Positions 1 to 46,546 of a stretch of 50,844 nt of DNA are shown here, piece after piece (position 1 is the stretch's first letter; every line of letters begins with the position of its first letter). The DNA is taken from assembly GCF_000002865.3 (NCBI RefSeq), contig NW_001865042.1, positions 102,370 to 153,213 of the forward strand. Direction: 5' to 3'. The notes under the pieces are model-generated. The model searched no databases and was not told the origin of the DNA. It was given only the letters and a program-made list of their open reading frames with translations. Both the position numbers and the translations under genes were made by a program. The DNA comes from Monosiga brevicollis MX1 (Eukaryota > Opisthokonta > Choanoflagellata > Craspedida > Salpingoecidae).

Positions 1-127
1 TTGTTGGACGCGGAACGGGGTGTTTTGGACGGTAATGCAGGTTGCATCCGGGGCTTGAGGAGACTGCACAAGTGTCTTTTTGTTTGCAATAGGTGTTGTT
101 CACAACATCAGACGCGGACCAGGTGAA

Positions 128-1249
128 ATGGCGCCGCGCACTCGCTCCGCGGCCGAGACCGACGTCAGTGGCAAGGGCAACAGCGCGCCGCATCGCGAGG
201 CCGACAAGGCACCAACGGCCACACGCTCAACGTCGGCTCAACTCCTTGAGCTCATCAAGCTTGGAAGACCCAAGTTTCTTTTCTACAGCCTCGCCTGTCA
301 TCTTGTTGGCGTCTTGATTGCCGCGCAGCAGGGCCGAAGCATCGACCTGGCCAGCGCCGTCGCCCTGCAAGCCACCATTTGGCTCACCCACCTCATGACG
401 CACTATGTCAACGATTACGGCGACTATGAAGCCGACATGGCCAACGAGAACGCTGGCTCCTGGACCGGAGGCAGCAAGGTTCTGCGCACCGGCACCATCC
501 AACGCGGCACCGCCCTGCTCATGGGCCTGGTTCTGCTCGTCGGCGCTACCCTCGCAGGGGCCACCTGTGTCGCCCGCTACGCCATCCTGCGTGAGCACGT
601 CTCCCTTCCCGACACCTACGATCTCGAAACTGTCCCTGCCCTCCTGGCTGAGATTCTGCGGGCCGCGCCCTGGCCCTTTGTCGCCTTTGGCCTGAGCACC
701 TTTGCCGTCGCCTTTGCTTACAGCCTGCCTCCGCTGCGCTTGTCGGCCAACGCCCTCGGCGAGATTTGCGTCAGCTACGTCCTCACCTTTGTCACCCCAG
801 TGGTGGGCTGCCTCCTCCAAGACGGCCAGATTGACCACCATTTTCTCGTCATTCTCGTGCCCATCTTCATGATGAACCTCAACCGCATGGTCATCATGAA
901 CATCCCCGATCGCGCGGGTGACGCCAAGGCACAAAAAATCACTTCCGTCGTCCTCATTGGCGAAGAAAAGGCCGTTCACCTCAACAACGGCATTTACATT
1001 TGGATTTACGCCCTTCTCCTCCACCAACTGCCCCTCACCTTTGCCGAGCGATGTGCCTACTTTGCCCCACTTCCGCTGCGCTTCTGGCAAAGCCTCCGCA
1101 TCAACAGCCCCGCCTGGTGGCACAACCGAGCCCTCACTGACTCCATCCCCTTTGTGGAGAGCCTCTACATCCTCTGCAGCGTCTCTTGCCTTTGTGTAGG
1201 CTTGGCCTACGACTTTTACTTCTCCCCCCTGTCTTCCCCTGCCCACTAG
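128..1249 (+). CDS. UbiA-family prenyltransferase, MenA/UBIAD1-like
   Basis: Integral-membrane enzyme expected to transfer a polyprenyl chain to an aromatic ring acceptor in quinone synthesis. The first Asp-rich motif reads NDYGDYEAD and is followed by TGGSKVL, a MenA-like feature. The second Asp-rich motif is IPDRAGDAKAQK, followed by the usual T-x-V-x-x-G stretch. Several hydrophobic helices surround them. The acceptor (DHNA, 4-hydroxybenzoate or another) cannot be told from sequence. I chose the ATG at 128 (373 aa) because the 16 extra residues from the ATG at 80 look untranslated, and an AG at 90-91 could be an acceptor for a 5' exon. The gene has no introns, unlike most neighbours, and a run of 16 A starts 25 bases after the stop. 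It converges on the FAD monooxygenase, with 211 bases between the stops. Family call is firm; substrate is not. Confidence 0.85.
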   Translation: MAPRTRSAAETDVSGKGNSAPHREADKAPTATRSTSAQLLELIKLGRPKFLFYSLACHLVGVLIAAQQGRSIDLASAVALQATIWLTHLMTHYVNDYGDYEADMANENAGSWTGGSKVLRTGTIQRGTALLMGLVLLVGATLAGATCVARYAILREHVSLPDTYDLETVPALLAEILRAAPWPFVAFGLSTFAVAFAYSLPPLRLSANALGEICVSYVLTFVTPVVGCLLQDGQIDHHFLVILVPIFMMNLNRMVIMNIPDRAGDAKAQKITSVVLIGEEKAVHLNNGIYIWIYALLLHQLPLTFAERCAYFAPLPLRFWQSLRINSPAWWHNRALTDSIPFVESLYILCSVSCLCVGLAYDFYFSPLSSPAH

Positions 1250-3506: not shown

Positions 3507-5751
3507 TCAAGGCTCGACCATGGGTGGGGTCGACGCTGATTCGTCAAGCGCAACCTCCGCAGACGTGATAATGGGCTCGTCTCGGGCAGCCGGGCTTGAA
3601 TCACCGCCATCGGCTGCAGAAGCCCGCTGCGAGTTCCACCAATTACTCACCGAAGTCCAGGCTGTGCCAAGACCTTGCTTGCTGCTCTGAAAGGCTTTGG
3701 TCAGGGTCTATGATAAAAGAAAGAGGACGAGTTTATGACATCAGGGTGTGTATACATGTCGTCACCAGGCGAGGGTCTAGTTCACGTACTCGCGAGCTGG
3801 TTTCAACCGCCGTCTTCATCGCCTGCTGACTGCGCACACCCAGATTGGGGCCAAAGTGCATGTCCGAAAATTGGCGAGCGCGTCGCCCAATGTCCTTCAA
3901 CTGTGTTCGCAACATCAGGGTGAGTCAACCAACATGCAATGGGAAACAAAACACCCCGAGGCAGGTTGCCTGGCATAAGACGCACCTGCAGGGCGCCGCG
4001 GCAAGGGTGTTCCAGAGGACTGTCCATGTACATGCGCCGGCCCGTCTCTCGCATATGCTGCACCGTGGTTCATCAGATGGTCAGGTTGCTTCCACCACCT
4101 TGATGGTTTGCTTGGGCTTGGACCATCGTACCTTGTCTGCGGCACGGCACCATCGTGCGTAACTGTGCGTTGAGCGCATGCCCAGAAAATAAAAGGAGCC
4201 ATAGTCTAGATGGTGGCAAGCAAAAGCGATGAAAATGACGTGCAATCTTGTGGACCAGCGCAGGGCCTGTCGCATGTCCTTCCAGTTAATGTTGAACATC
4301 AAGCACGAACACGAGCCCGCACCGTTGAGGCGATCAAGAGACTCCTTGGTGGGCTGCTCACGAGCAAAGTCCACGCCAGCCAAAAAGCGCAAAATGTAGT
4401 CCGTAAACTGATGTGAACATGCGAACCTCGTGAGTATGCAGTGGCGCGATGAAAAGCATCAGGCACAGGACCACTAAAGCAGGAGCTATCTTGCACCTGA
4501 TAGCAACACCACGCCGGTGAACCGGCAAAGGTGGGTGCAGCAGCGTTTTGCGCCTCCTCGCATTGTGCAATAATGTCGTCCATAAAGCTGAAAACAAAGA
4601 AACGTTATGACGTGAAAACGGGGGTTCGCATAAGCGAGTATAGCATAAAAGAAAACGGCTTGCACGACGGACGAACCGCACATCCGGCGTGGACAAGGCA
4701 GCCTCGTCTTGTACAAACTTGTTGGCAAACCTAAAACAGATTGGCATGACCCAAAACATCAAGGCCCAAATGCACGAAAAGAGGCCGGAGTGGCATTACT
4801 TACTGGACAGAGACATTGCCCTTGTGATTGCAGAGATCCACAACTACGTCTGCCAGCTGAGAATGCTGGGTCATCATAGCGTTGGTGGTACCCATTAAAC
4901 AGGATTTGGCCTCCAAAAGAGCAGGCAGCTGCTGGATGGTTGTATAGGGATAAAGCGTATGCTGCAGCATTTGGTGACAGGCAGCCATTAGCACCATGGG
5001 TTTGGCGTCACGGCTCGTCGAGCAGAGCACGACGATTCGGTTGTTAGGGGTTGACTCACCCCGCCACTGTGGTCGGCCACAAAAACTGGCAGTAAAAGTT
5101 TGCTCGTACGCTCAGCCAAAGTCTCTGTCACATCGGGCGGCGTAGCCTAGATGTTCGCGTCGAATGGGCCAAGGCAGGGTTCCGCACAAGGTAAGAAGCT
5201 CGTCCCGAAAAGGCTCGAGTTTGCGATCTGCCGGCAGTGGTCGGAGGATTGATCAGGCACACCTGCAAATTGGGGCTCGCGGCATGAGGTTCAGCATCCA
5301 GCCACGCATCTGCCTCGGCGTCTGGGCTGCTATGAACTTGATCATCCGGCGCAGGGGTGGGGCTTGAGCGAGCGCTCAAAATCTTTCCTCCCTGGGCGTC
5401 TTCCGTGGCGGTGTGGAGGCAGGTAAGCATGCCCGGTACCAGGGCGGCGAGAGCCACAATCGTTTGACTGATGGTGGCAGCTGAAACGTCGGAGCTAGTA
5501 GAACAAATTAAAACCTGCCATGGGACCACAGCGCAGCAAACACAACCTCCAATCAGGAAGGTGGCAGGCAGCGAGAAAAGTAGACGGGGTTGATTTTTTT
5601 TTTTTTTTTTGCTGAGTGCGAGGTGAACAAGCCCACCTTTTTACCAAGCAGCAAAAGCTTGAAAATCTATACCCAATCACGTTGCGGGAGGTGAAAAAGC
5701 ATGCCCGGCGAACAAGCCAGCGTTGATCGACTTGCGACGCTTGAAAAAGGC

Positions 5752-5832
<81 letters not shown>

Positions 5833-6580
5833 GGAGGACGCGGTGGCGGAGACGGATGATGACGCCTGTAACATCCACTTCCTCAAGAACATAGTCTTGA
5901 AGGTCAAAGCTCCGGCTGTTGAAGGATCGAGTCAGGCTCTGATACTGGCTGACAAGCAACGTGTCAGCGTCCAGGGCTCGCTGCTCAAAGAGGACCTGGA
6001 GGGTGGGGGCCAGCGCACTTTCCAAGAGCTTGAAGACGGGAAAGGGTGAAAGCACCGTGAGTGCCTTCATGACGGTGTTGCGGTTATACTCTGCGTGCTC
6101 GGCGAGGCGCTCTGTCTCGATTTGCCTCGAGCAGGCGACGCCAAAGAGCCGCTGCTGTGGCTGGTCGCGATGTCCGGGCTTTAAGGCGGGTACTGTGAAA
6201 AAGGTTGTGTCCTGGTGGTGGTTGTGAAGACCGTCCGGCAACGTCAAAAAGGGCAGATGGGCCCACGCCGCAGGCAGCGCAGGATTTTCTTCCACATGAT
6301 GAGCTTGGTCATCCCGATCGCCACTGGCCCCGGGGTTCAGGCGTGGATAGACCATCTCAATGACTGGCCCCTTGGTATGATGGAAGGAAGACAGCATAAT
6401 GTACAAGGGAGCTCCGGCGCGCTCGTGGGCTTGAATGAGATCGTGCACGGAGGGCCCCGTCGAAGCCGCGGCCGGCATGACCAAGACCTCATCATCGCTT
6501 TCATCAAGGGCTTCACTGGTCACCTGCTGATCCGCTGACGCGGTCGCCTCCAGCGAAACTTCCTCAAGGCTCACATCCAT
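3507..6580 (-). CDS. AVL9: AVL9 homologue (DENN-type late secretory pathway protein)
   Basis: Twelve exons (minus strand): 6580-5831, 5666-5637, 5514-5263, 5146-5060, 4961-4804, 4730-4677, 4587-4497, 4407-4323, 4205-4132, 4057-3986, 3900-3790, 3686-3507. Every phase matches and the product is 647 aa, about the length of human AVL9. Family landmarks are FHHTKGPVIEMVYP, the LPDG-H-N-x-x-x-D-T-x-F-F block, RLFGVACSRQIE, and the join RHRVLQ/IFKLLLLGKK/VLICS, where the middle block is a 30-base microexon. AVL9 proteins act in exocytic transport and cell polarity. Intron 1 is filled by a long GT repeat beginning at the donor itself. The third exon could instead end at 5188, leaving a 41-base intron; I preferred 5263, which gives a 116-base intron. 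The C-terminal tail is acidic and Ser/Pro-rich. Confidence 0.9.
5753..5830. repeat. (AC)39 microsatellite at the AVL9 intron 1 donor
   Basis: Seventy-eight bases of uninterrupted AC on the plus strand, GT on the AVL9 sense strand. Exon 1 ends at 5831, so the splice donor GT is the first unit of the repeat. The intron runs on to the acceptor at 5667. Confidence 0.95.
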
Positions 6581-6723
6581 CCTGGCCAGTCTTGTTCACT
6601 TGTACCGCACCAAGACCCGCACCCCCTAACAACCTTGTGGCTTCCTCCTTCACACCTTCAGCACTCCAACCGAGGCGAGGCTCGGATATGCCGCTGCTCG
6701 CCCTCGACGATCAGCGCAGCGTC

Positions 6724-19437: not shown

Positions 19438-20880
19438 TCAAGCCACACTTTTTTCATAGATGAGGTGGTTTTGCAGAGCTGCGTAGTCTGCGACGGCTGG
19501 ACCATGCGGCAGTTGAACGGCTTCGTTGACGCCCTGATCAGCGAGATTAACATAGGCGGGCGACCTCACTGCATTGACGTAGGCCGTGCTTTGAGGGCTA
19601 TTCATAACAATTGTCTGCACCGGTGGTGGGTGCGTGTCCACCTGCGCATATGTACTATGAGCAGCTGTTCCGGGCGGAAGGCTCGGAAGCTCAAATCCAT
19701 ACACGTCAGCATCTGTTTCATCCAAAGAGTTCAAGTGTGCGTTTCCAAGTGGCGGGGAGGAAGACGGCAGATTGGTAGTGTCAGCCACAGGTAGAAGGTA
19801 TGTGTCGTCGTCCTGAAGCAAAGACGGGTTCAGTGTCATGGATGATGGGCGAAATTGGGTTTCCGTGCGGGGGCGAAACTGGGTTTCAGAGCGCGGCCGA
19901 ATTTGGGTTTCTGAGCGCGGCCGGGTTTGTGTGTCCGACCGCGGGAGAACTTGGGTTCCTGAGCGTGAGCGAGCGGGCAGGTCCCGCCCGCCTTGCATAA
20001 CGTGCCAATTTTCCTTTGATGGACGATCAAACAGGGCTGGGGGTTGCTCTGTCATCGAGCCCGTGCCCGTATTCCTTGCGCCATGATGCGTGCTGCCCGA
20101 AGTGATGACCACGGTAAGAGGGGCCAAGAGCAAGTTGAGTTCATCGCGGAAGGAAGCAAGCTCCCGGTAGTCACAGACGACGGGGTGTGTTAGGGGTGTG
20201 TTGAAGAAGGTGCCGTTACTGCTCGAGTCGCAGCGATCGAGGACCTCCTCCATGTCATTGAACAAAAACACCTGATCTGTGTTTTGGCCCTTGGCGCGGC
20301 CAACAACCCGGAATCTGCCTCTGGAATCAAAGAAGGTGAGAAAGTGGAGGATGCGCTGGCCTAGAGGCTTGCCAGAAGAGCTGCTCTCGACGACCGAGGA
20401 GATGCAAAAGACGACCTCCTGGCCCTGGGTCTGCGGTTCCTTGACTCGCAACAAAAAAGTGCCAACCTCGCTGCAGGAGAGAAGACAAGACATGGCGGGG
20501 CGGGGGATGGTGGAGGCAGGGGCGAAGTGAGACGGCACGGCTAGCAAGGGAGGTGGGTCGAACGGGACGGCAGCGAGCCGACGGCAGGATTCAAATTCAT
20601 TCCTTGCTTTGCTTCCCGCCTCGGCTCTGCTCAGCTCAACGTACGGATTGTCGCTGGTATTGGCGATGCGGTGCACCACTTCTTCGCGGCTAATAGGGCC
20701 ATGAAAATGGTCGGGCATGCCGCTGGGAAAAGCAGCACGAATGGCTCGAGCCATGCGTACCTTGGGGGAAGCTTGAGGCGCCAGACCCAGGCACATGGCA
20801 ACCACCACGACCAGGGCCACCAGCACCACGGCGCCGCCGCTCACGGCTGTCATTGCATCCATCCCGACGCTTCGACTCAA
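19438..20880 (-). CDS. Membrane-anchored SH2 protein A with tyrosine-rich tail
   Basis: Two exons, 20880-20645 and 20470-19438 (donor GTACGT), 422 aa. Starting at the internal Met (20862), which matches paralogue B, would give 416 aa. A Gly/Val/Leu-rich hydrophobic segment lies at about residues 14-33 with few residues before it, so it is a signal anchor or signal peptide. The SH2 domain follows: FHGPISREE (alpha-A Arg), then after the intron GTFLLRV (beta-B Arg of the FLVR motif), a long beta-C hairpin, and ILHF with the beta-D His. The remainder is low complexity, with five imperfect copies of a 7-residue RPRSETQ-type unit and seven tyrosines: TYLLP, VYGFE, STYAQV, AYVNAV, AYVNLA, DYAALQ, IYEKSV. 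Two are pYxN (Grb2-SH2-type) and STYAQV fits an ITIM. Topology is unproven. Tandem paralogue of the gene at 22529-24102. Confidence 0.82.
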   Translation of the reverse strand: MSRSVGMDAMTAVSGGAVVLVALVVVVAMCLGLAPQASPKVRMARAIRAAFPSGMPDHFHGPISREEVVHRIANTSDNPYVELSRAEAGSKARNEFESCRRLAAVPFDPPPLLAVPSHFAPASTIPRPAMSCLLSCSEVGTFLLRVKEPQTQGQEVVFCISSVVESSSSGKPLGQRILHFLTFFDSRGRFRVVGRAKGQNTDQVFLFNDMEEVLDRCDSSSNGTFFNTPLTHPVVCDYRELASFRDELNLLLAPLTVVITSGSTHHGARNTGTGSMTEQPPALFDRPSKENWHVMQGGRDLPARSRSGTQVLPRSDTQTRPRSETQIRPRSETQFRPRTETQFRPSSMTLNPSLLQDDDTYLLPVADTTNLPSSSPPLGNAHLNSLDETDADVYGFELPSLPPGTAAHSTYAQVDTHPPPVQTIVMNSPQSTAYVNAVRSPAYVNLADQGVNEAVQLPHGPAVADYAALQNHLIYEKSVA

Positions 20881-22528
20881 AGCTCGCGCAAGAAGGAGGG
20901 GGAGGGGATGCGAGTCACGGACGGGACGTGCAAGCGCACAATGGAATCGTAGTCACGGTCAAGGGCACCGGCTGCCAAAACGTCGAGCGAGGGCGAGGCA
21001 GAGCCGCAACAGTTGCTCAAAACCCAACCATGCGCACGCCACGCACGATCCGCACAGCGTGTGTGTGTGTGCGTGTGCGTGTGCATGCGAAGGGCAAGTG
21101 CCACGGTGTACGAAGAAGCGAAGCGTCGTGCCAGGGAAGCAGTGCGCAGGATGAAAATGGAGTTTGCTTCAGCGGCTCGCCAGGCGAGCGCGACCGGAAA
21201 CGTGCTCGGCCGCCAACGTGACCCCGGTCTTGACGTTTACGTATAAGATTTCTATCCTCCACGTGTGATACTCCAAAGGTCATGTAATGTAAAACCCGTC
21301 AAATAGGTGTGGTTTTTGTCGTACCTATGTGTGGCGTGGCTAGCCATGTGTAACTGTTTTATGGGGCAAAAAGTGGTTTGGCGCTGTTGCAGCTGCTCCT
21401 CACGTTCTTCTTTTGTTCTCTGTGTGTGTGTATGTGTGACCTCTCTCTCTCTTTGACTTTGACTCTCTCTTGACTCTCTCTCGCTCTCTCGCTCTCTCGC
21501 TCTGTCGCTCTGTCGCTCTGTCGCTCTCTCTCTCTCTGTCTCTGTCCCTGTTCTCGGCTGTGCTCTGTTCCCGCGGCGCGAGAGCCATTCACCGCTACCG
21601 GCATTTGTTACAGCATGCCTGGCGTCGCACCTCTTTTCTTCTCATGCCCACCACCTGCCCACTCACAACTGTTTGCAACCATGCCGATTTGAGTCCGCCA
21701 ATCCCACAACAAAGCCCACACTCAACAATCAGCCTTGCCTACCATGAACACGACACCCTCAGCCATGTGGAACATTGCTTCATGACAATTGGAAACGCCG
21801 TCGGTCCCTGCCCCAGTTCCCTGCTGCTGGCTATGCCCACAGGCCCAAGACGACGTTGATGGGTGCCTTGCACACTTTTGTCACATGTCACAAGTCCGAA
21901 AGCCCGCCCGTTGTCGGTTGGCACCAATATGGTAGACGCGCATATGCCAAAGGTGTGCAGCATCATCAACAAACAGGCAATGCGACCGCCTATGCACATC
22001 TCTCAACTCGAGCGCTCAAGTCTGGGATGGTTGCCGGCGCGGGGACTGCAACAAACAACACAGAACAACCGAACAAATTTTTTTAAATAATTATTGTCAA
22101 TTCGCTCCTCTGGGTTACCCCACCGACCCCAAGCACCTGTGCGCGCATCACAGCAGTTTTACCCTTTTTGGCTCGTTCACCCCAAAAGCTTGAGGTTCAC
22201 TCCACCCTAAATTCTTTCCCACGCGACACAAAAGCAGGGCTAGGGTTACACACACTCCAGTCCGACGACAATCACGGTCAGAAAAAACCCACCATCCACC
22301 ACGTCCATTTCTCGCACCGTAACACACAACAAAGCATCCCAGCACAGGACTCGAGCCCCGTCCTTGCTCCCGGAAAAAGTCACTTGTTCACCGCATGACG
22401 TGTTCATCGACCGCAAAGCAGTTCGGAAGACGCAAGGAAATTGCCAGACAGTTTGAGCACAAGTCAGAAAGTCAATTAAGAGTGAAATGAGCAGGTAGGT
22501 AGGTGGTCTTAAAGTCGCGGTGATGGCC
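20881..22528. other. Spacer between the two SH2 paralogues
   Basis: No supported gene in 1.65 kb. A GT-rich patch lies at 21058-21086 and a CT-rich microsatellite at about 21439-21545. Short ORFs on both strands lack recognisable domains and splice partners. It should contain the promoter of SH2 gene A and the 3' end of gene B. Confidence 0.55.
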
Positions 22529-24102
22529 TCACGCACGACTATTCTGATAGGTTGCATGCTCATCCAGCGATGCGTAGCTTATTGCAAGCTGACGAGCCGT
22601 CTGGGCAGAATCATCGCGCGACATGGATAAACGGGATTGGGTGAGATAGCTGCTAAAAGCCTCGTTAACTTTTTTGGGGGGAGTAGCCCAAATCGGGTCG
22701 TCGACTTGCGCGTAGGCGCTGCTGCGAGAAACCGCGGGTTGTTCTAGATCAGCTGGCCGCCTGCTGATACTCCCAGACAGCATTGGTCTGCTTGAAGCAG
22801 CCCCAACTTGAGTAGGTGCAGCCGTGGCCTCATGCCGGTTCGCCTCTTTGCCCATGAGGTGGATAGGCACATCGACATACTCTTGGGTGCTCGGTTTGGC
22901 CTTGGCGGGCCGGCTAGCGCCAAAGACAGCGCGATGGTCCGTTACTTCCGGCATGCCATGGACCTGACTCGTGGCATGGATAGATGTATTGATATACTGA
23001 TGGGGTTTCGTTTTGGCCTTGGCGGGCCGGTTAGTGCCAAACACAGTGCGGTGGTCCGTGGCGTCTGGCATGTCTATGGCCTGGCTCGCGTCTGTCGCCT
23101 GCAGCGCGTGTGAGTTGCCCAATGGCGGGGACGACGACCTTGGCTCGGGGATTTGAAATAACGGCGTCACGTATACATCCCTGTTTGTCCTTAACGGGCC
23201 GGATGCCGGTGCCTGTAAGCTAGCACTGTCATCTGTCTCGTGGGTCTGAACGTCGATAGCGTGCCATACGGGTGCGGGCGCCAAGCTCGTCGTGGCATTC
23301 TCGGGAGCTTGCTGTGGAGACGGCTGGGAGTTGGATGTAATGACCACGGTGAGGGGGGCCAAAAGCTCGTTGAGCTCATCGCGGAAGGCAGAAAGCTCTC
23401 GATAGTCACAGGCTACGGGATGCGTGAGCGGTGTGTCAAAAAAAGAGTCGTCGTCGTTGGAGCCACACCGACTGAGTACCTCCTCCATGCTATTGAACAA
23501 AAACACTTCATCCTTGGCTTGGCCCTTGGCACGGCCAACCACTCGAAACTTGCCCTTGGCGTTGAAAAAGGCAAGAAAATGGAGGACGCGCTGGGCCAGT
23601 GGCTTGCCAGAGGCGCTGCTTTCAACAACGGAGGAAATGCAAAAGACCACCTCATGCTGGTGTTCCTGTGGCTCCTTGACACGCAACAGAAATGCACCCT
23701 CCGGGCTGCACAAGGCACGGTGTAACGAGAAGAAGAGAGGTGAGACGAGCCGCCGGTAGAGGTGATCAGTCAGCGAGCAGGCGTGGCTGCTGCCTGTTTC
23801 CTGTGGTTTGGGTGGACAACATCGTTTCCACAGATCAGCACGAGCGAATCAACAACGTACGGATCGCCGCCATATGCGGCAATGCGACTGATGGTCACGT
23901 CGCGGTTGATGGGGCCATGAAAGAAAATAGGCATGCCGTTTGGGAAGGCACGACGAATGGCGCGCGCCATGCGCTTTTTGGGTGGCACGTTCCGACCTTG
24001 ACCCAGACACATGGCGACCGCCACAACCAAGGCAACGAGCACCACGCCCCCTCCACCCAGACCCATGAGAACATCCATGGCGATCTTTACAAATCGAAGC
24101 AA
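22529..24102 (-). CDS. Membrane-anchored SH2 protein B with tyrosine-rich tail
   Basis: Two exons, 24102-23861 and 23705-22529, 472 aa (464 aa if the Met at 24078 is used). The intron sits at the same codon and phase as in gene A, so the pair arose by tandem duplication. Layout is the same: short N-terminus, Gly/Val/Leu helix, basic RMARAIRRAFP, then SH2 with FFHGPINRD, GAFLLRV and VLHF. The tail differs from A but again has seven tyrosines: VYVTPL, QYINTS, EYVDVP, AYAQVDD, SYLTQS, SYASLD, TYQNSR. Two are pYxN and SAYAQV is ITIM-like. A 33-residue stretch is duplicated (MPDATDHRTVFG... and MPEVTDHRAVFG...), each copy carrying one tyrosine. The last 15 residues align with those of A (YASL-x5-Y versus YAAL-x5-Y). 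No kinase or phosphatase domain. Confidence 0.82.
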
Positions 24103-41754: not shown

Positions 41755-44123
41755 ATGCTGCAGTCATTCCTTGGATTAAAAGGTGCCCCCGAGTTGGTGG
41801 CAGTCACCTTGGCTCTACCTGACGGTGCCGCCGTCACCGTCGAGGTGCGTGCCCCTCTGTGTGCGCAAGCCCATCACTTCGACATCTGCCGATCCCCCGC
41901 TGATCTTGTCATGCTACGGCAGGTCTCGAAGAATGCAACCATCAGTGATGTCCTTCCGTTGCTGGATCGGGAGGTCCAACTTCCAGAGCGTCTCTTTTTT
42001 GGTCTCCTGGCCCCCAAGGATACGGTGCGTGGTCTTCCACCTCCAACCCTGCTTGGCGGCCTTTTTGGCATCCATTATTCACACGCATATTGGCATCGGG
42101 CAGGAGAAGCATTTCCTTGACCCCAATGACAGTCTGCGCAAGGTCCTGGGCCAACCGGTTGCTGAAGTAGAGGTATCAAGTTTGCTGTGGCCCGCCTCGG
42201 CAATTAGATGCCGTCTCACCTGACTGCGGCCCCCCGTCCCATCCTATTTATTCATCAACATGTTTGCTTTTGCACAGACCACAACAGGACGTCTGGGTCG
42301 AAAGCATTGGCGCTTGCAGTTGCAGCTGCGCTATCATCCTCCAGCTGTGGTCATGCGCGAATGGTCACCCATGGGCAAGACCTGGCTGCTGCACTCCTTG
42401 CTTGCAGAGCTCCTCGCGGCTCGACTCCAAGTGATGCAGGACGTCGCCGTCTCGCTGGGCGCTCTGGCTGCTCAAGTTCTAGCAGGTGACTACGAGGAGA
42501 GTCGACATGCTGATGCCCAGTATCTTCGTTCCATGCGTGTGCAGCCCGATCAAGACGAGCGCCTTACTCGGTATGCACGGTGCAGCTCCACCCTGGGCCC
42601 TCCAAATCACTTTTTTTTTGCATCTTGGCGCAGCTGAACGTCTCATGCCCCCGTTGTTTGACCCTTGATGTGCTTCTTCTCTCTAGCGCCATTCAGCATC
42701 GCCACGCAAGCCATAGTGGCATGATCACCTCAGCCAACGCGCTGGATGAGTTTCTCAACCTGTGCTGCGAACAAGAACTTTACGGAGTCGGTCGTCTGTT
42801 TGAAACGGCCCCCACCCCTGACCGCGAGGTACCACCAACACCGTCCTTTTACCTTGCTCTTGAGGTTGCTTGATTCAGTTTTTGTGGTTGTTGTTTTGTC
42901 GGTTTTTTTTTTTTTTTTTTTTTTTTTGGGGGGGGGGGGGGTGGTGTTTTTGTTTTTTGTTTTTTGTTTTATTTTTTGAGAGCTGCCTGCTTGGCTCACA
43001 GATACGCCCTGGTTCATCTTATCAGATTCAGCAAGTCGGGTGCTCGGCGCGTGGTGTGCATGTCTATGCACATGATCAGCGCGTCGTCATATATGGCTGG
43101 TCCCGCATTCAGCGCATGCACTACCGCAGTAAAAACTTTGAAATCACTCTCAAGACGCCCCCGTCTGAGTTTGAACCAACCGACTTTTTCTTTGCCACGT
43201 CAGCCCTCTGCAAGGCTGTGTGGTCGCACTGCGTTGAGCGCCACGCTTTTTACCGCATACGCAACACCTCGCTGCGAGGTGACGTTCAAGGCGTTCCCAT
43301 TGGCGCCACCATGTTTGAAGCTTCGCGGATTGCGCGCCGCAACTCAAAGATGCTGGAACAAGCCTCGCTCGACGAAGCCCGTCGCCGGTCCTCCAATTGG
43401 ACGAGTTCAACCGGCTCCTTTGAATCGCACGTTTCACTTGATTCCCTGATCCGAGGGGCCGAGGGCGAAGCCATTCGCCGTGCCAGCGCGGCCCCTTCGA
43501 AGAATGTGGCCCGAACGCCCAGTTTTGCCGTGGCCATTGTGGCCTTTGAACCGCAGGGTGACCGAGTGCGTGCTGTCATCTGCGTTGCTCATGCATGCGG
43601 CTACCCCTCCGTCCTGCCTGCCACGATGGCCTGTCTGACCTTGTTTTGTCTTGCTTTTTGTCGTGGCATCGTGGCATAGGACCTTGCCTTTCGACCAGGC
43701 CAGGTTGTCCGACTGACCAAGACTGACGAGCATGATTGGTGGTGGGGTGCCATCGGTCCACAGTCCGGACGCTTCCCTAGTCGCTGTGTGACTAGGCTTG
43801 ACCAAGATTTGTCTCGCCTTGTACGTCAGGCTGACTGACCAGAGAGAGCTCGCCCGATCTTGCCTTTTTCCATACGCACTCACCCAGCTCTGCATTTGAC
43901 GCACCGTGCATAGGTCAAGGCCAAGCGAGATCATCAGGGAGAGATGAGTTTTCCCGCCGGGGCCATCCTGTCACTGGAGGAGACCTCACGTGACGTCCCG
44001 GCAGGCATGCTGTTTGGACGTTTTGGAAGTCGCACGGGCCTGTTCCCGCAGGACGTGGTTGCCAGCCTCGCACCAACGACCAAACCATTATCTCAACCGC
44101 TGACCCAGCAAGTTATCATTTAG
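41755..44123 (+). CDS. FERM - SH3 - SH3 adaptor protein
   Basis: Eight exons: 41755-41844, 41923-42024, 42104-42172, 42278-42570, 42687-42828, 43002-43565, 43680-43820, 43914-44123; phases match, 536 aa. FERM lobe F1 spans residues 1-87 (LALPDGAAVTVEVSKNATIS, LDPNDSLRKVL). F2 is about 88-232, all-helical. F3 (PH-like) is about 233-320, with VVIYGWSRIQRMHY, FEITL, and CKAVWSHCVERHAFYR, the classic FERM_C end. After a Ser/Ala/Arg linker come two SH3 domains: about 408-465 (VAFEPQGDRDLAFRPGQ, DWWWGAIG, GRFPSRCV) and about 468-522 (GEMSFPAGAILSL, GLFPQDVV). No kinase, actin-binding or PDZ domain is present, so it looks like a membrane-cytoskeleton adaptor that gathers proline-rich ligands. I know no standard animal protein with exactly FERM-SH3-SH3. 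Confidence 0.9.
42903..42941. repeat. T25-G14 homopolymer tract in FERM-SH3 intron
   Basis: Twenty-five T followed directly by fourteen G inside the intron 42829-43001. Such junctions are prone to replication slippage and to sequencing error. Confidence 0.9.
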
Positions 44124-44521: not shown

Positions 44522-45736
44522 TCACTGGACCGTATCGTAGCCACTACGCTTGTGTGAGGAGCCATAACGCAAGTAGGCGAAAAAGCCAAGGAGAACAACG
44601 AAAAGACCACCCATGACACCGCCTGCTACGGCCCCAGCGTAGCGTTTGGAGCTGTGCTTGTTCGAGGCGGGAACGCACTCTGGCACTTGTGAATGGGGCA
44701 CAAACTGTAGAGTACCACCCTGTGGTGGATGCTCGCAGGACGAGGCCGTCCCGGTGATGTGCTCAGTGCAATTTTGACATGCCCCGCCCACCAGTTGACA
44801 GTGGCGCTTCAAGACATAGGTGCCAGCTGTACCAATGTAGCTCAACTGGTATGCAGAGCCATCAGAGGATTTTCTGCACGTGTCATCGGGTGAGCCGAGA
44901 TTGGTGATGTTGCTGTTGGATGCCGAGCTGCAGGTGTTGGAGGTTGGGAAATTGACCGCGAACACGCTTGAGAGGTCGGATTGTGTCTGATTGGTAGCGG
45001 GCGAGGCACAGATCTGACTGGAGTTGGTGAAGAGGAAAGAAAGCTGCTCGCCCGTGCTGATAGGGATGCAGGTTTTGTAGTTGACGTTGCTCTCGTCCAG
45101 GTCGCAATTGTTGCAATGATGATCAACGCAGTAGAAGCGAGCGATGACCAGTCTTTGGTGGGCGGGGTCCAAAGCCAGCTGATAGTAATGGCCAGTCGCG
45201 CTGAGTCGGCACGAGGTGTTGGTTTCCGCCACACTAGCCACGATCGCGGCTTGATCCAGCCCCACGCCAATGCTACAATCACGACTTGGAAAGATGTGCA
45301 CGTAAGCCTGTCGACGAGCAGGGTCTGGCTTTGGTGTTGGTGCCACCGTCGTCGTCGTTGTCACATCCGGGGTTGTCGTCGTCACATTCGGGCTTGTCGT
45401 CGTCACATTGTTGTGCGCTGTGGTGGTCGTCGTTGCCTCTGAGGTTGTCGTCGTTGCCTCTGAGGTTGTCGTTTGGCCCGTCGAGGTAGCCGTTGTACCA
45501 TTCTCGTGCCCTGTGGTCGTGGTCGTCGCCACTGTCGTCGTCGTGTTCGGTTCAACCGTGCTGATCGTCACCGTGGCGGTGGTTGACGTTGACACGTTTG
45601 AAGAAGCCGCCACGGCCGCCCCCGTGGGCTCGATCTTTCCAACCGCTAACCCAGCAGCCGAAGCAAGCACACCATACAGCATGAGCGCCACCCATATCCA
45701 ACGAGTCGACCATCTCGTCCTGCTTGCCACTGCCAT
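44522..45736 (-). CDS. Mucin-like type I membrane protein with duplicated Cys module
   Basis: Intronless, 404 aa from the ATG at 45736. An upstream in-frame ATG at 45820 adds 28 residues, but the signal peptide fits the later one: MAVASRTRWSTRW, then the hydrophobic IWVALMLYGVLASAAGLAVG. A Thr/Ser-rich stretch of about 100 residues (TTTT, TSEATTTT, NVTTT units) is a likely O-glycosylated stalk. Two homologous cysteine modules of about 95 residues follow. Each has FPS/FPT, a Cys, C-R-x-x-x-x-x-G-x-x-Y-Q-L, a Cys, C-x-N-C, and a final L-x-F...C. Next is one transmembrane helix (GAVAGGVMGGLFVVLLGFFAYL) and a short basic tail ending SGYDTVQ, with one candidate phosphotyrosine. I recognise no named domain for the module. 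Likely a cell-surface or adhesion protein. Confidence 0.8.
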   Translation of the reverse strand: MAVASRTRWSTRWIWVALMLYGVLASAAGLAVGKIEPTGAAVAASSNVSTSTTATVTISTVEPNTTTTVATTTTTGHENGTTATSTGQTTTSEATTTTSEATTTTTAHNNVTTTSPNVTTTTPDVTTTTTVAPTPKPDPARRQAYVHIFPSRDCSIGVGLDQAAIVASVAETNTSCRLSATGHYYQLALDPAHQRLVIARFYCVDHHCNNCDLDESNVNYKTCIPISTGEQLSFLFTNSSQICASPATNQTQSDLSSVFAVNFPTSNTCSSASNSNITNLGSPDDTCRKSSDGSAYQLSYIGTAGTYVLKRHCQLVGGACQNCTEHITGTASSCEHPPQGGTLQFVPHSQVPECVPASNKHSSKRYAGAVAGGVMGGLFVVLLGFFAYLRYGSSHKRSGYDTVQ

Positions 45737-46546
45737 CGTGCCGGTGTTCAATGTGATTCGAGCGTGCCGCGTATTGCAAATTGGCTGGCCTTGCAGAGAG
45801 CTGCTCAAAAATGACTGCAACCTGAAGAGATTTGTCCAGAAGGGAAGCTGAAGTCAGAGATGCTTTTAAAGTCGTAGCTTTTTCCTTAGTAAAACTGTAG
45901 GCTGAAGCAGAGATGTGAACGAGACATCCCTTTCCATCAGAGACACCTTTAAACCCATGGTTGTCGGTCAGAGATCTTGCAGGAGAACCTCTTCTTCAAA
46001 TACCACAACAACACGACACGAATGTCAGATGAAATAATTGGTTATCGTCACTGTTTTACTTCACCGCCCTCCTGGCGACGACAGGACCAGCTCGGCGCAG
46101 TCAGCGCAGCTCGGCCCTTATCGGCTCAGCTCGGCTCGGATCGGATTGTTTGGGCTTTGAAATCAGCCCAATCTCGGCAAGCTGTTGAACCAGCAACGCA
46201 TCGACCACGTATGTACTACACACATAAATTTTCCTGCCTTTTTTTTTATTTGCATGATCGGAATGATGATGCTGAGGTTTGTTGCTCACCGCCGACGCCG
46301 CATGGATGGGTAGCTGCACGCAATATGCCCAAGCGGTAGGAGACGTTCACCAGCATTACAGGCTAGAGCTGGATGATTGGAGCCCCTTCAGCAAGAGAAG
46401 CATCCCTCATCAAGCCTGACCCGGTCATTATTTATGACGTGATTCTCCCCATCACGGCCATGGCTTCTTCCCTGCGAGACCGGTCTGTGCCATGTCGCTG
46501 CTCGATTGCATGAAAATTACGGCACGCTTCCTTGGGCCTTACGGAT
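45737..46546. other. Divergent promoter region of mucin-like and coiled-coil genes
   Basis: No supported gene. Three direct copies of CAGCTCGGC at 46088, 46107 and 46127 are spaced 19-20 bases apart. Short CAGAGATG-type repeats lie near 45855-45915. These might be binding sites; nothing confirms that. Confidence 0.5.

Follow-up and report, generated by a model that had tools for sequence, protein, structure and literature searches.

Can one small protein be fixed in a membrane, read phosphotyrosine, and offer docking tyrosines of its own, and if so, what would it do? This question is raised by two adjacent genes, here called A and B, in a stretch of 50,844 nucleotides from the choanoflagellate Monosiga brevicollis MX1 (contig NW_001865042.1, positions 102,370 to 153,213 of the forward strand; this whole stretch is referred to as the window, and its numbering is used throughout). 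On balance, we favor the reading that A and B encode small single-pass membrane adaptors that would relay and amplify a phosphotyrosine signal along the membrane, in the manner of LAT and with an SH2 reader of their own. The evidence comprises the structures of the two genes, a divergent SH2 domain that keeps its phosphate-binding arginine, a hydrophobic segment under purifying selection, and a few tyrosine motifs conserved between otherwise dissimilar tails.

Gene structure and SH2 identity

A and B are paralogs on the minus strand, located at 19438-20862 (416 residues) and 22529-24078 (464 residues), respectively. The first-pass annotation, made from the letters alone, had described two neighboring paralogs, each with an N-terminal hydrophobic segment, a single SH2 domain with the FLLR arginine, and seven tail tyrosines, and the gene structures bear out this description. 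The start of the span that it gave for the pair (19438-24102) also holds, whereas the end lies 24 bases upstream of the ATG of B. Exon 1 of A (20645-20862) carries the start codon, the hydrophobic segment, a basic juxtamembrane stretch, and the first part of the SH2 domain, up to a donor site (GTACGT) at 20644; a phase 2 intron of 174 nucleotides (20471-20644, GTACGT...CTGCAG) and exon 2 with the stop codon (19438-20470) follow. In B, the corresponding parts are exon 1 (23861-24078), with its start codon in a CGCCATGG context, an intron of 155 nucleotides (23706-23860), and exon 2 including the stop codon (22529-23705). The sole intron of each gene splits the SH2 domain, at the same position and in the same phase, with junctions (slash) that read NP/EVGTFLLR in A and DP/PEGAFLLR in B. 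Splice sites were predicted from the consensus, the reading frame, and the agreement between both genes. The introns have only their first 8 bases in common, with no significant similarity beyond them (best E value, 0.13). Since the intron of A has no in-frame stop, its retention would add 58 residues inside the SH2 domain. A search of the genome with protein A (up to an E value of 1) returned A and B only, and a search of viral contigs for relatives of the pair gave 29 pattern-bearing stretches, none of which was confirmed.

Several results weigh against the presence of an SH2 domain. The Pfam SH2 model, with its cutoff of 21 bits, scored A at 14.6 bits as a whole protein and at 17.0 bits when trimmed, and it did not match B. 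Two AlphaFold models were of low confidence (mean pLDDT of 41.0 and 50.4), and structure searches with these models did not place SH2 domains among the top matches; the order of strands and helices in them nevertheless fits an SH2 domain. Both proteins are also absent from the 114 SH2 matches (E ≤ 0.001) in our scan of the 39.5-Mb assembly (57 contigs).

The matter was settled by a profile built from SH2 sequences of this genome itself (47 nonredundant domains out of 56 full-length pieces, with A and B left out). The trimmed domains of A and B scored 25.1 bits (E value, 1e-6; residues 51 to 175) and 22.3 bits (E value, 7e-6; residues 52 to 173), and the whole proteins scored 21.6 and 18.7 bits. 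The decoy set consisted of 1,290 sequences (1,000 shuffles, 2 reversals, and 288 open reading frames [ORFs] from the window). The best shuffle reached 7.0 bits, and the decoys ranking next to A and B, at 14.1 and 11.7 bits, are window ORFs whose coordinates show them to be A and B read without splicing. With a smaller profile of 19 sequences, the trimmed domains scored 12.0 (A) and 11.4 (B) bits, compared with 6.5 bits for the best shuffle. Finally, hhalign matched the alignment of A and B to SH2 at 97.85% with a score of 67.1, compared with 11.4 for the reversed alignment and no more than 18.9 in 100 column shuffles. On the own-genome profile, and not on Pfam, we therefore assign one divergent SH2 domain to each protein, at residues 51 to 175 of A (20164-20712, intron included) and, placed by alignment with A, at residues 51 to 175 of B (23399-23928, intron included). 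The SH2 identity claimed in the first-pass annotation is thus upheld by profile search, for which Pfam alone would have been insufficient. Since these domains fall below the Pfam cutoff, the number of SH2 domains in such genomes may have been underestimated.

The FLLR motif is intact in both proteins, and its arginine, R81 (20446-20448 in A and 23681-23683 in B), aligns with that of the profile. R59, R81, and H115, at positions that usually contact phosphate in SH2 domains, are all present in A and B and aligned with the profile. Sequence matches in the PDB were few, all to SH2 domains and none significant: HSH2D with A alone (E value, 0.13), and PTK6 (0.23) and HSH2D (0.67) with the profile of A and B. 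The start of the domain does resemble those of HSH2D and PTK6 (FHG-ISRE, G-FL-RV), in nonsignificant matches (E values of 0.13 to 0.67) that are confined to residues 47 to 85. HSH2D and PTK6 are not known to have a transmembrane (TM) segment. Within the genome, the best-matching SH2 domain for both A and B was that of locus L006 (10.5 and 8.9 bits), which is outside the set of TM-SH2 proteins described below; two members of that set, L035 and L027, came next for A (8.2 and 7.3 bits), a ranking by pairwise comparison and not by a tree. L006, L007, and L014, whose SH2 domains are among the closest same-genome ones to that of A, have them in or just behind frames that, judged by motifs, look like the end of a myosin motor and its neck.

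As the first-pass annotation had stated, no other domain accompanies the SH2 domain: scanned against Pfam at E ≤ 1, A and B matched no other family, and SH2 itself was matched by A only, below the cutoff. There is likewise no sign of a truncated known enzyme, as both paralogs reach a matching C terminus with tyrosines at the 15th and 6th residues from the end. The best-conserved part of the pair is residues 174 to 197 (DYRELxxFRDELNxLLAPLTVVITS; 20098-20169 in A and 23333-23404 in B), which are 88% identical, with a ratio of nonsynonymous to synonymous substitution (dN/dS) of 0.11. They contain a conserved tyrosine, Y174, just behind the SH2 domain and lie outside every Pfam match in both proteins.

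Predicted membrane segment and tyrosine-bearing tail

The most hydrophobic 19-residue windows comprise residues 10 to 28 of A (20779-20835; Kyte-Doolittle mean, 2.92) and residues 7 to 25 of B (24004-24060; mean, 2.56), while the best windows past residue 45 average 1.26 and 1.08. Between A and B, residues 1 to 50 are 66% identical (dN/dS, 0.18) and residues 8 to 30 are 70% identical (dN/dS, 0.17). The hydrophobic segment is therefore under purifying selection and conserved to a degree like that of the SH2 domain (67% identical; dN/dS, 0.17). The 30 bases directly 5' of the ATG are identical at the chance level of 27%, and ORF pieces upstream of A showed no significant similarity to those upstream of B (best E value, 0.29). 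Because the dN/dS of the segment matches that of the SH2 domain and homology begins at the shared ATG, the segment is very probably translated; the concern raised with the first description, that it might not be, can on this evidence be set aside with the same degree of confidence.

Neither protein has a lysine or arginine ahead of the segment, and residues 29 to 48 behind it carry a net charge of +4 in A and +7 in B. By the positive-inside rule, the basic flank of a membrane segment stays in the cytosol. Because the basic cluster is found only behind the segment, the C terminus, with the SH2 domain and tail, is predicted to be cytosolic.

The tail of A (residues 199 to 416; 19441-20094) has tyrosines at positions 297, 330, 347, 370, 379, 402, and 411; that of B (residues 199 to 464; 22532-23329) has them at 251, 310, 349, 404, 426, 450, and 459. 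The tyrosine array of the first-pass annotation stands with regard to the seven sites per tail and the conservation of some motifs. The density of these tyrosines counts against the favored reading: the values of 3.21% (7/218) in A and 2.63% (7/266) in B are ordinary beside those of four further long ORFs in the window (0.98 to 3.54%). The aligned tails are 27% identical, with synonymous change saturated, and retain YAQVD, YA(A/S)L, and the last tyrosine in the same order, the latter two equally far from the C terminus in both. The motif context departs modestly from chance. With the caveat that the patterns were picked after the sequence had been seen, YAxV or YAxL occurs twice per tail (shuffle P values of 0.004 for A and 0.005 for B), as does YxN (0.04 and 0.02), and tyrosines followed by a hydrophobic residue at +3 are not enriched relative to shuffles (0.13 and 0.10). 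YxN is the class of motif bound by Grb2-type SH2 domains. The tail of B also contains a 39-residue tandem repeat (residues 285 to 323 and 324 to 362; 18/39 identical) with one tyrosine per copy. From these comparisons, a few tail sites look constrained, while others seem to come and go. Separately, residues 244 to 283 of the A tail (19840-19959, minus strand) form, by eye, a short tyrosine-free tandem repeat with a unit of 8 residues (TQxRPRSE).

Related layouts in the genome and in known systems

The first-pass annotation had regarded the layout as matching no standard animal SH2 family known to it, but uniqueness is not supported: kinase-less TM-SH2 proteins are a class in this genome, and individual cases have been published, namely, a cadherin-TM-SH2 protein of Monosiga (gene model 11339), as described in PMC3082566, and a protocadherin-TM-SH2 protein of Choanoeca perplexa, as described in PMC6040629. 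Our survey read 74 SH2 loci, in which 122 SH2 pieces were recognized, with domain starts at 88 distinct places; 20 further stretches lay outside it. At seven loci (L025, L027, L035, L037, L050, L062, and L065), a clear membrane helix followed by basic residues stands upstream of the SH2 domain in the same open frame. Together with L038, a near copy of L037, they make eight other TM-SH2 proteins, with open frames of 706 to 2987 residues. When these eight and two further loci, L048 and L044, were scanned against Pfam, SH2 scored above the cutoff in all 10 stretches, a kinase was found in none, and cadherin was found in L025 (40.6 bits; this TM-SH2 protein also contains the sequence FSNPMYA), L037, and L038. 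L037 (contig C34) and L038 (contig C55) are, by eye, near-identical large cadherin-TM-SH2 genes and may represent a recent duplicate or a duplicate of the assembly.

Four of these proteins have a TM segment, then tyrosines (15 in L062, 5 in L035, 12 in L050, and 25 in L065), and then one or two C-terminal SH2 domains. L048 and L044 have arrays of 24 and 19 tyrosines, and their N termini lie beyond the stretch read. Tyrosine densities of the arrays range from 2.56% (L035) up to 8.09% (L065), and several of the six arrays are built from repeats (YDQPNA, YEEPVVQAQEGDR, YDSPNAQDQT). This genome thus repeatedly combines an SH2 reader with docking sites on a single membrane-bound protein, a plan of which A and B are the smallest form seen; several of these six loci are more striking candidates for self-docking than A and B.

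A and B resemble the choanoflagellate TM-SH2 proteins in having a helix, basic residues, a predicted cytosolic SH2 domain, cytosolic tyrosines, and, in the stretches read, no kinase by Pfam, and by this order of parts they would be counted among them. In contrast, the other members are larger, with additional protein sequence on the N-terminal side of the helix, and in L035, L050, L062, and L065 the tyrosines lie between the TM segment and the SH2 domain, while A and B have a tail behind the SH2 domain and would have fewer than 10 residues outside. No clear second case of a short-ectodomain SH2 protein was found among the 88 other SH2 starts (20 stretches unread). Hydrophobic runs near the SH2 domain at 16 loci outside the TM-SH2 set were judged by eye not to be membrane segments of short SH2 proteins, most having no in-frame methionine before the run; L005 (where a methionine precedes a run in another frame) and L047 may be further cases. 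Such a survey can miss SH2 domains that, as in A and B, are interrupted by an intron. Of the 22 pieces that had no domain start, 11 had a candidate first half, recognized by its motif, in the 700 bases upstream, and in no case did an open frame connect it to a membrane segment; the remaining 11 pieces have no assignment.

A different likeness is to the vertebrate transmembrane adaptors LAT, NTAL, PAG, LAX, and GAPT, which recruit SH2 proteins and, as in A and B, combine a short extracellular part, one TM segment, and a long cytosolic tail with several tyrosines (PMC4861716). Unlike for A and B, the passages on these adaptors in that source make no mention of a built-in SH2 domain. Judged by hydropathy and by the start of homology at the ATG, A and B would share the very short ectodomain and single membrane-spanning helix of the LAT plan. 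A conserved cysteine, C24, lies close to the cytosolic side of the predicted helix and could be palmitoylated. The resemblance to LAT, NTAL, and PAG is one of layout only, and we do not claim common descent.

What appears distinctive in A and B is therefore an ectodomain of fewer than 10 residues, on the plan of the LAT-type adaptors, with a built-in SH2 domain; they add a compact form to a class that has itself already been published. In our literature search, we noticed no title on a short-ectodomain SH2 protein; the Manning 2008 and Pincus 2008 works, reportedly catalogs of Monosiga phosphotyrosine proteins, were outside that search.

Proposed function and alternatives

For the adaptor function favored here, we infer the following course from sequence. 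Fewer than 10 residues would remain outside, one helix would cross the membrane, and the remainder would be cytosolic. Through its SH2 domain, the adaptor would bind a phosphorylated tyrosine on a different protein, in the simplest case an activated receptor or a protein attached to one, and this built-in reader would bring it to the signal. A nearby tyrosine kinase would then phosphorylate the tail, which in turn would recruit cytosolic SH2 proteins.

The same anatomy would permit other uses. Only tentatively do we consider a self-clustering scaffold, the idea put forward in the first-pass annotation, in which the SH2 domain of one copy binds tail phosphotyrosines of other copies or of the paralog, giving a two-dimensional polymer or gel. 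A reader and several potential ligands are present in one chain, seven sites would permit branching, and the combination recurs in L050, L062, and L065 (a TM segment, 12 to 25 tyrosines, and one or two SH2 domains). A theoretical treatment of LAT, in which Grb2 valences run from zero to three and a Grb2-SOS1 complex forms the bridge, predicts gel-like aggregation (PMC3291652); in A and B, that bridge could be built in, and it is conceivable, if doubtful, that they act as LAT-like adaptors able to start phosphotyrosine clusters by themselves, with no separate adaptor as a bridge. In that case, the minimal transmembrane-adaptor plan familiar from the lymphocytes of vertebrates would have had an independent origin in a single-celled relative of animals. 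The tails, however, differ strongly (27% identical), and the SH2 domain would have to accept their motifs. If tail and SH2 domain do interact, the pair would offer a very simple natural system for phosphotyrosine-driven membrane clustering that could be rebuilt on a bilayer, and a possible independent counterpart of LAT. It is unlikely that A and B instead damp signaling, either autoinhibited by binding of the SH2 domain to its own tail in cis or by competing for receptor sites. The absence of a catalytic output domain would suit such a negative adaptor, as would YxxV/YxxL motifs with serine or isoleucine at -2 (Y347 in A and Y404 and Y450 in B), which resemble inhibitory motifs of immune receptors; however, the count of these motifs ranges from chance to weak enrichment (P values of 0.31 for A and 0.035 for B).

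The two remaining alternatives deny one of the functional parts. A degenerate SH2 domain that has lost phosphotyrosine binding, with residues 174 to 197 as the working part, would account for the subthreshold Pfam scores and for the conservation of those residues above all others (88%; dN/dS, 0.11). We regard it as rather improbable, given that R59, R81, and H115 are kept in both proteins in alignment with the profile and that the SH2 domain has a dN/dS of 0.17. Least probable of all is that the hydrophobic segment serves as a signal peptide that is cleaved from a secreted protein, or that it forms part of a longer receptor with an ectodomain exon upstream. Its length and position would fit a signal peptide, and the upstream sequence without an assigned gene amounts to approximately 1.7 kb for A and 1.3 kb for B; an upstream exon encoding an ectodomain, although improbable, would contradict the short-ectodomain layout. 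Opposed to this are the basic cluster behind rather than ahead of the segment, the end of homology at the shared ATG, and the dissimilarity of the upstream ORF pieces.

Elsewhere in the window, Pfam identified a UbiA prenyltransferase domain (59-1246, plus strand), an Avl9 domain (5498-6595, minus strand), and a FERM C-terminal domain (42864-43676, plus strand), none with an evident link to A and B. An ORF at 44525-45853 (minus strand), without a Pfam match, encodes a threonine-rich, mucin-like sequence with a hydrophobic segment near the C terminus and a short tail containing one tyrosine.

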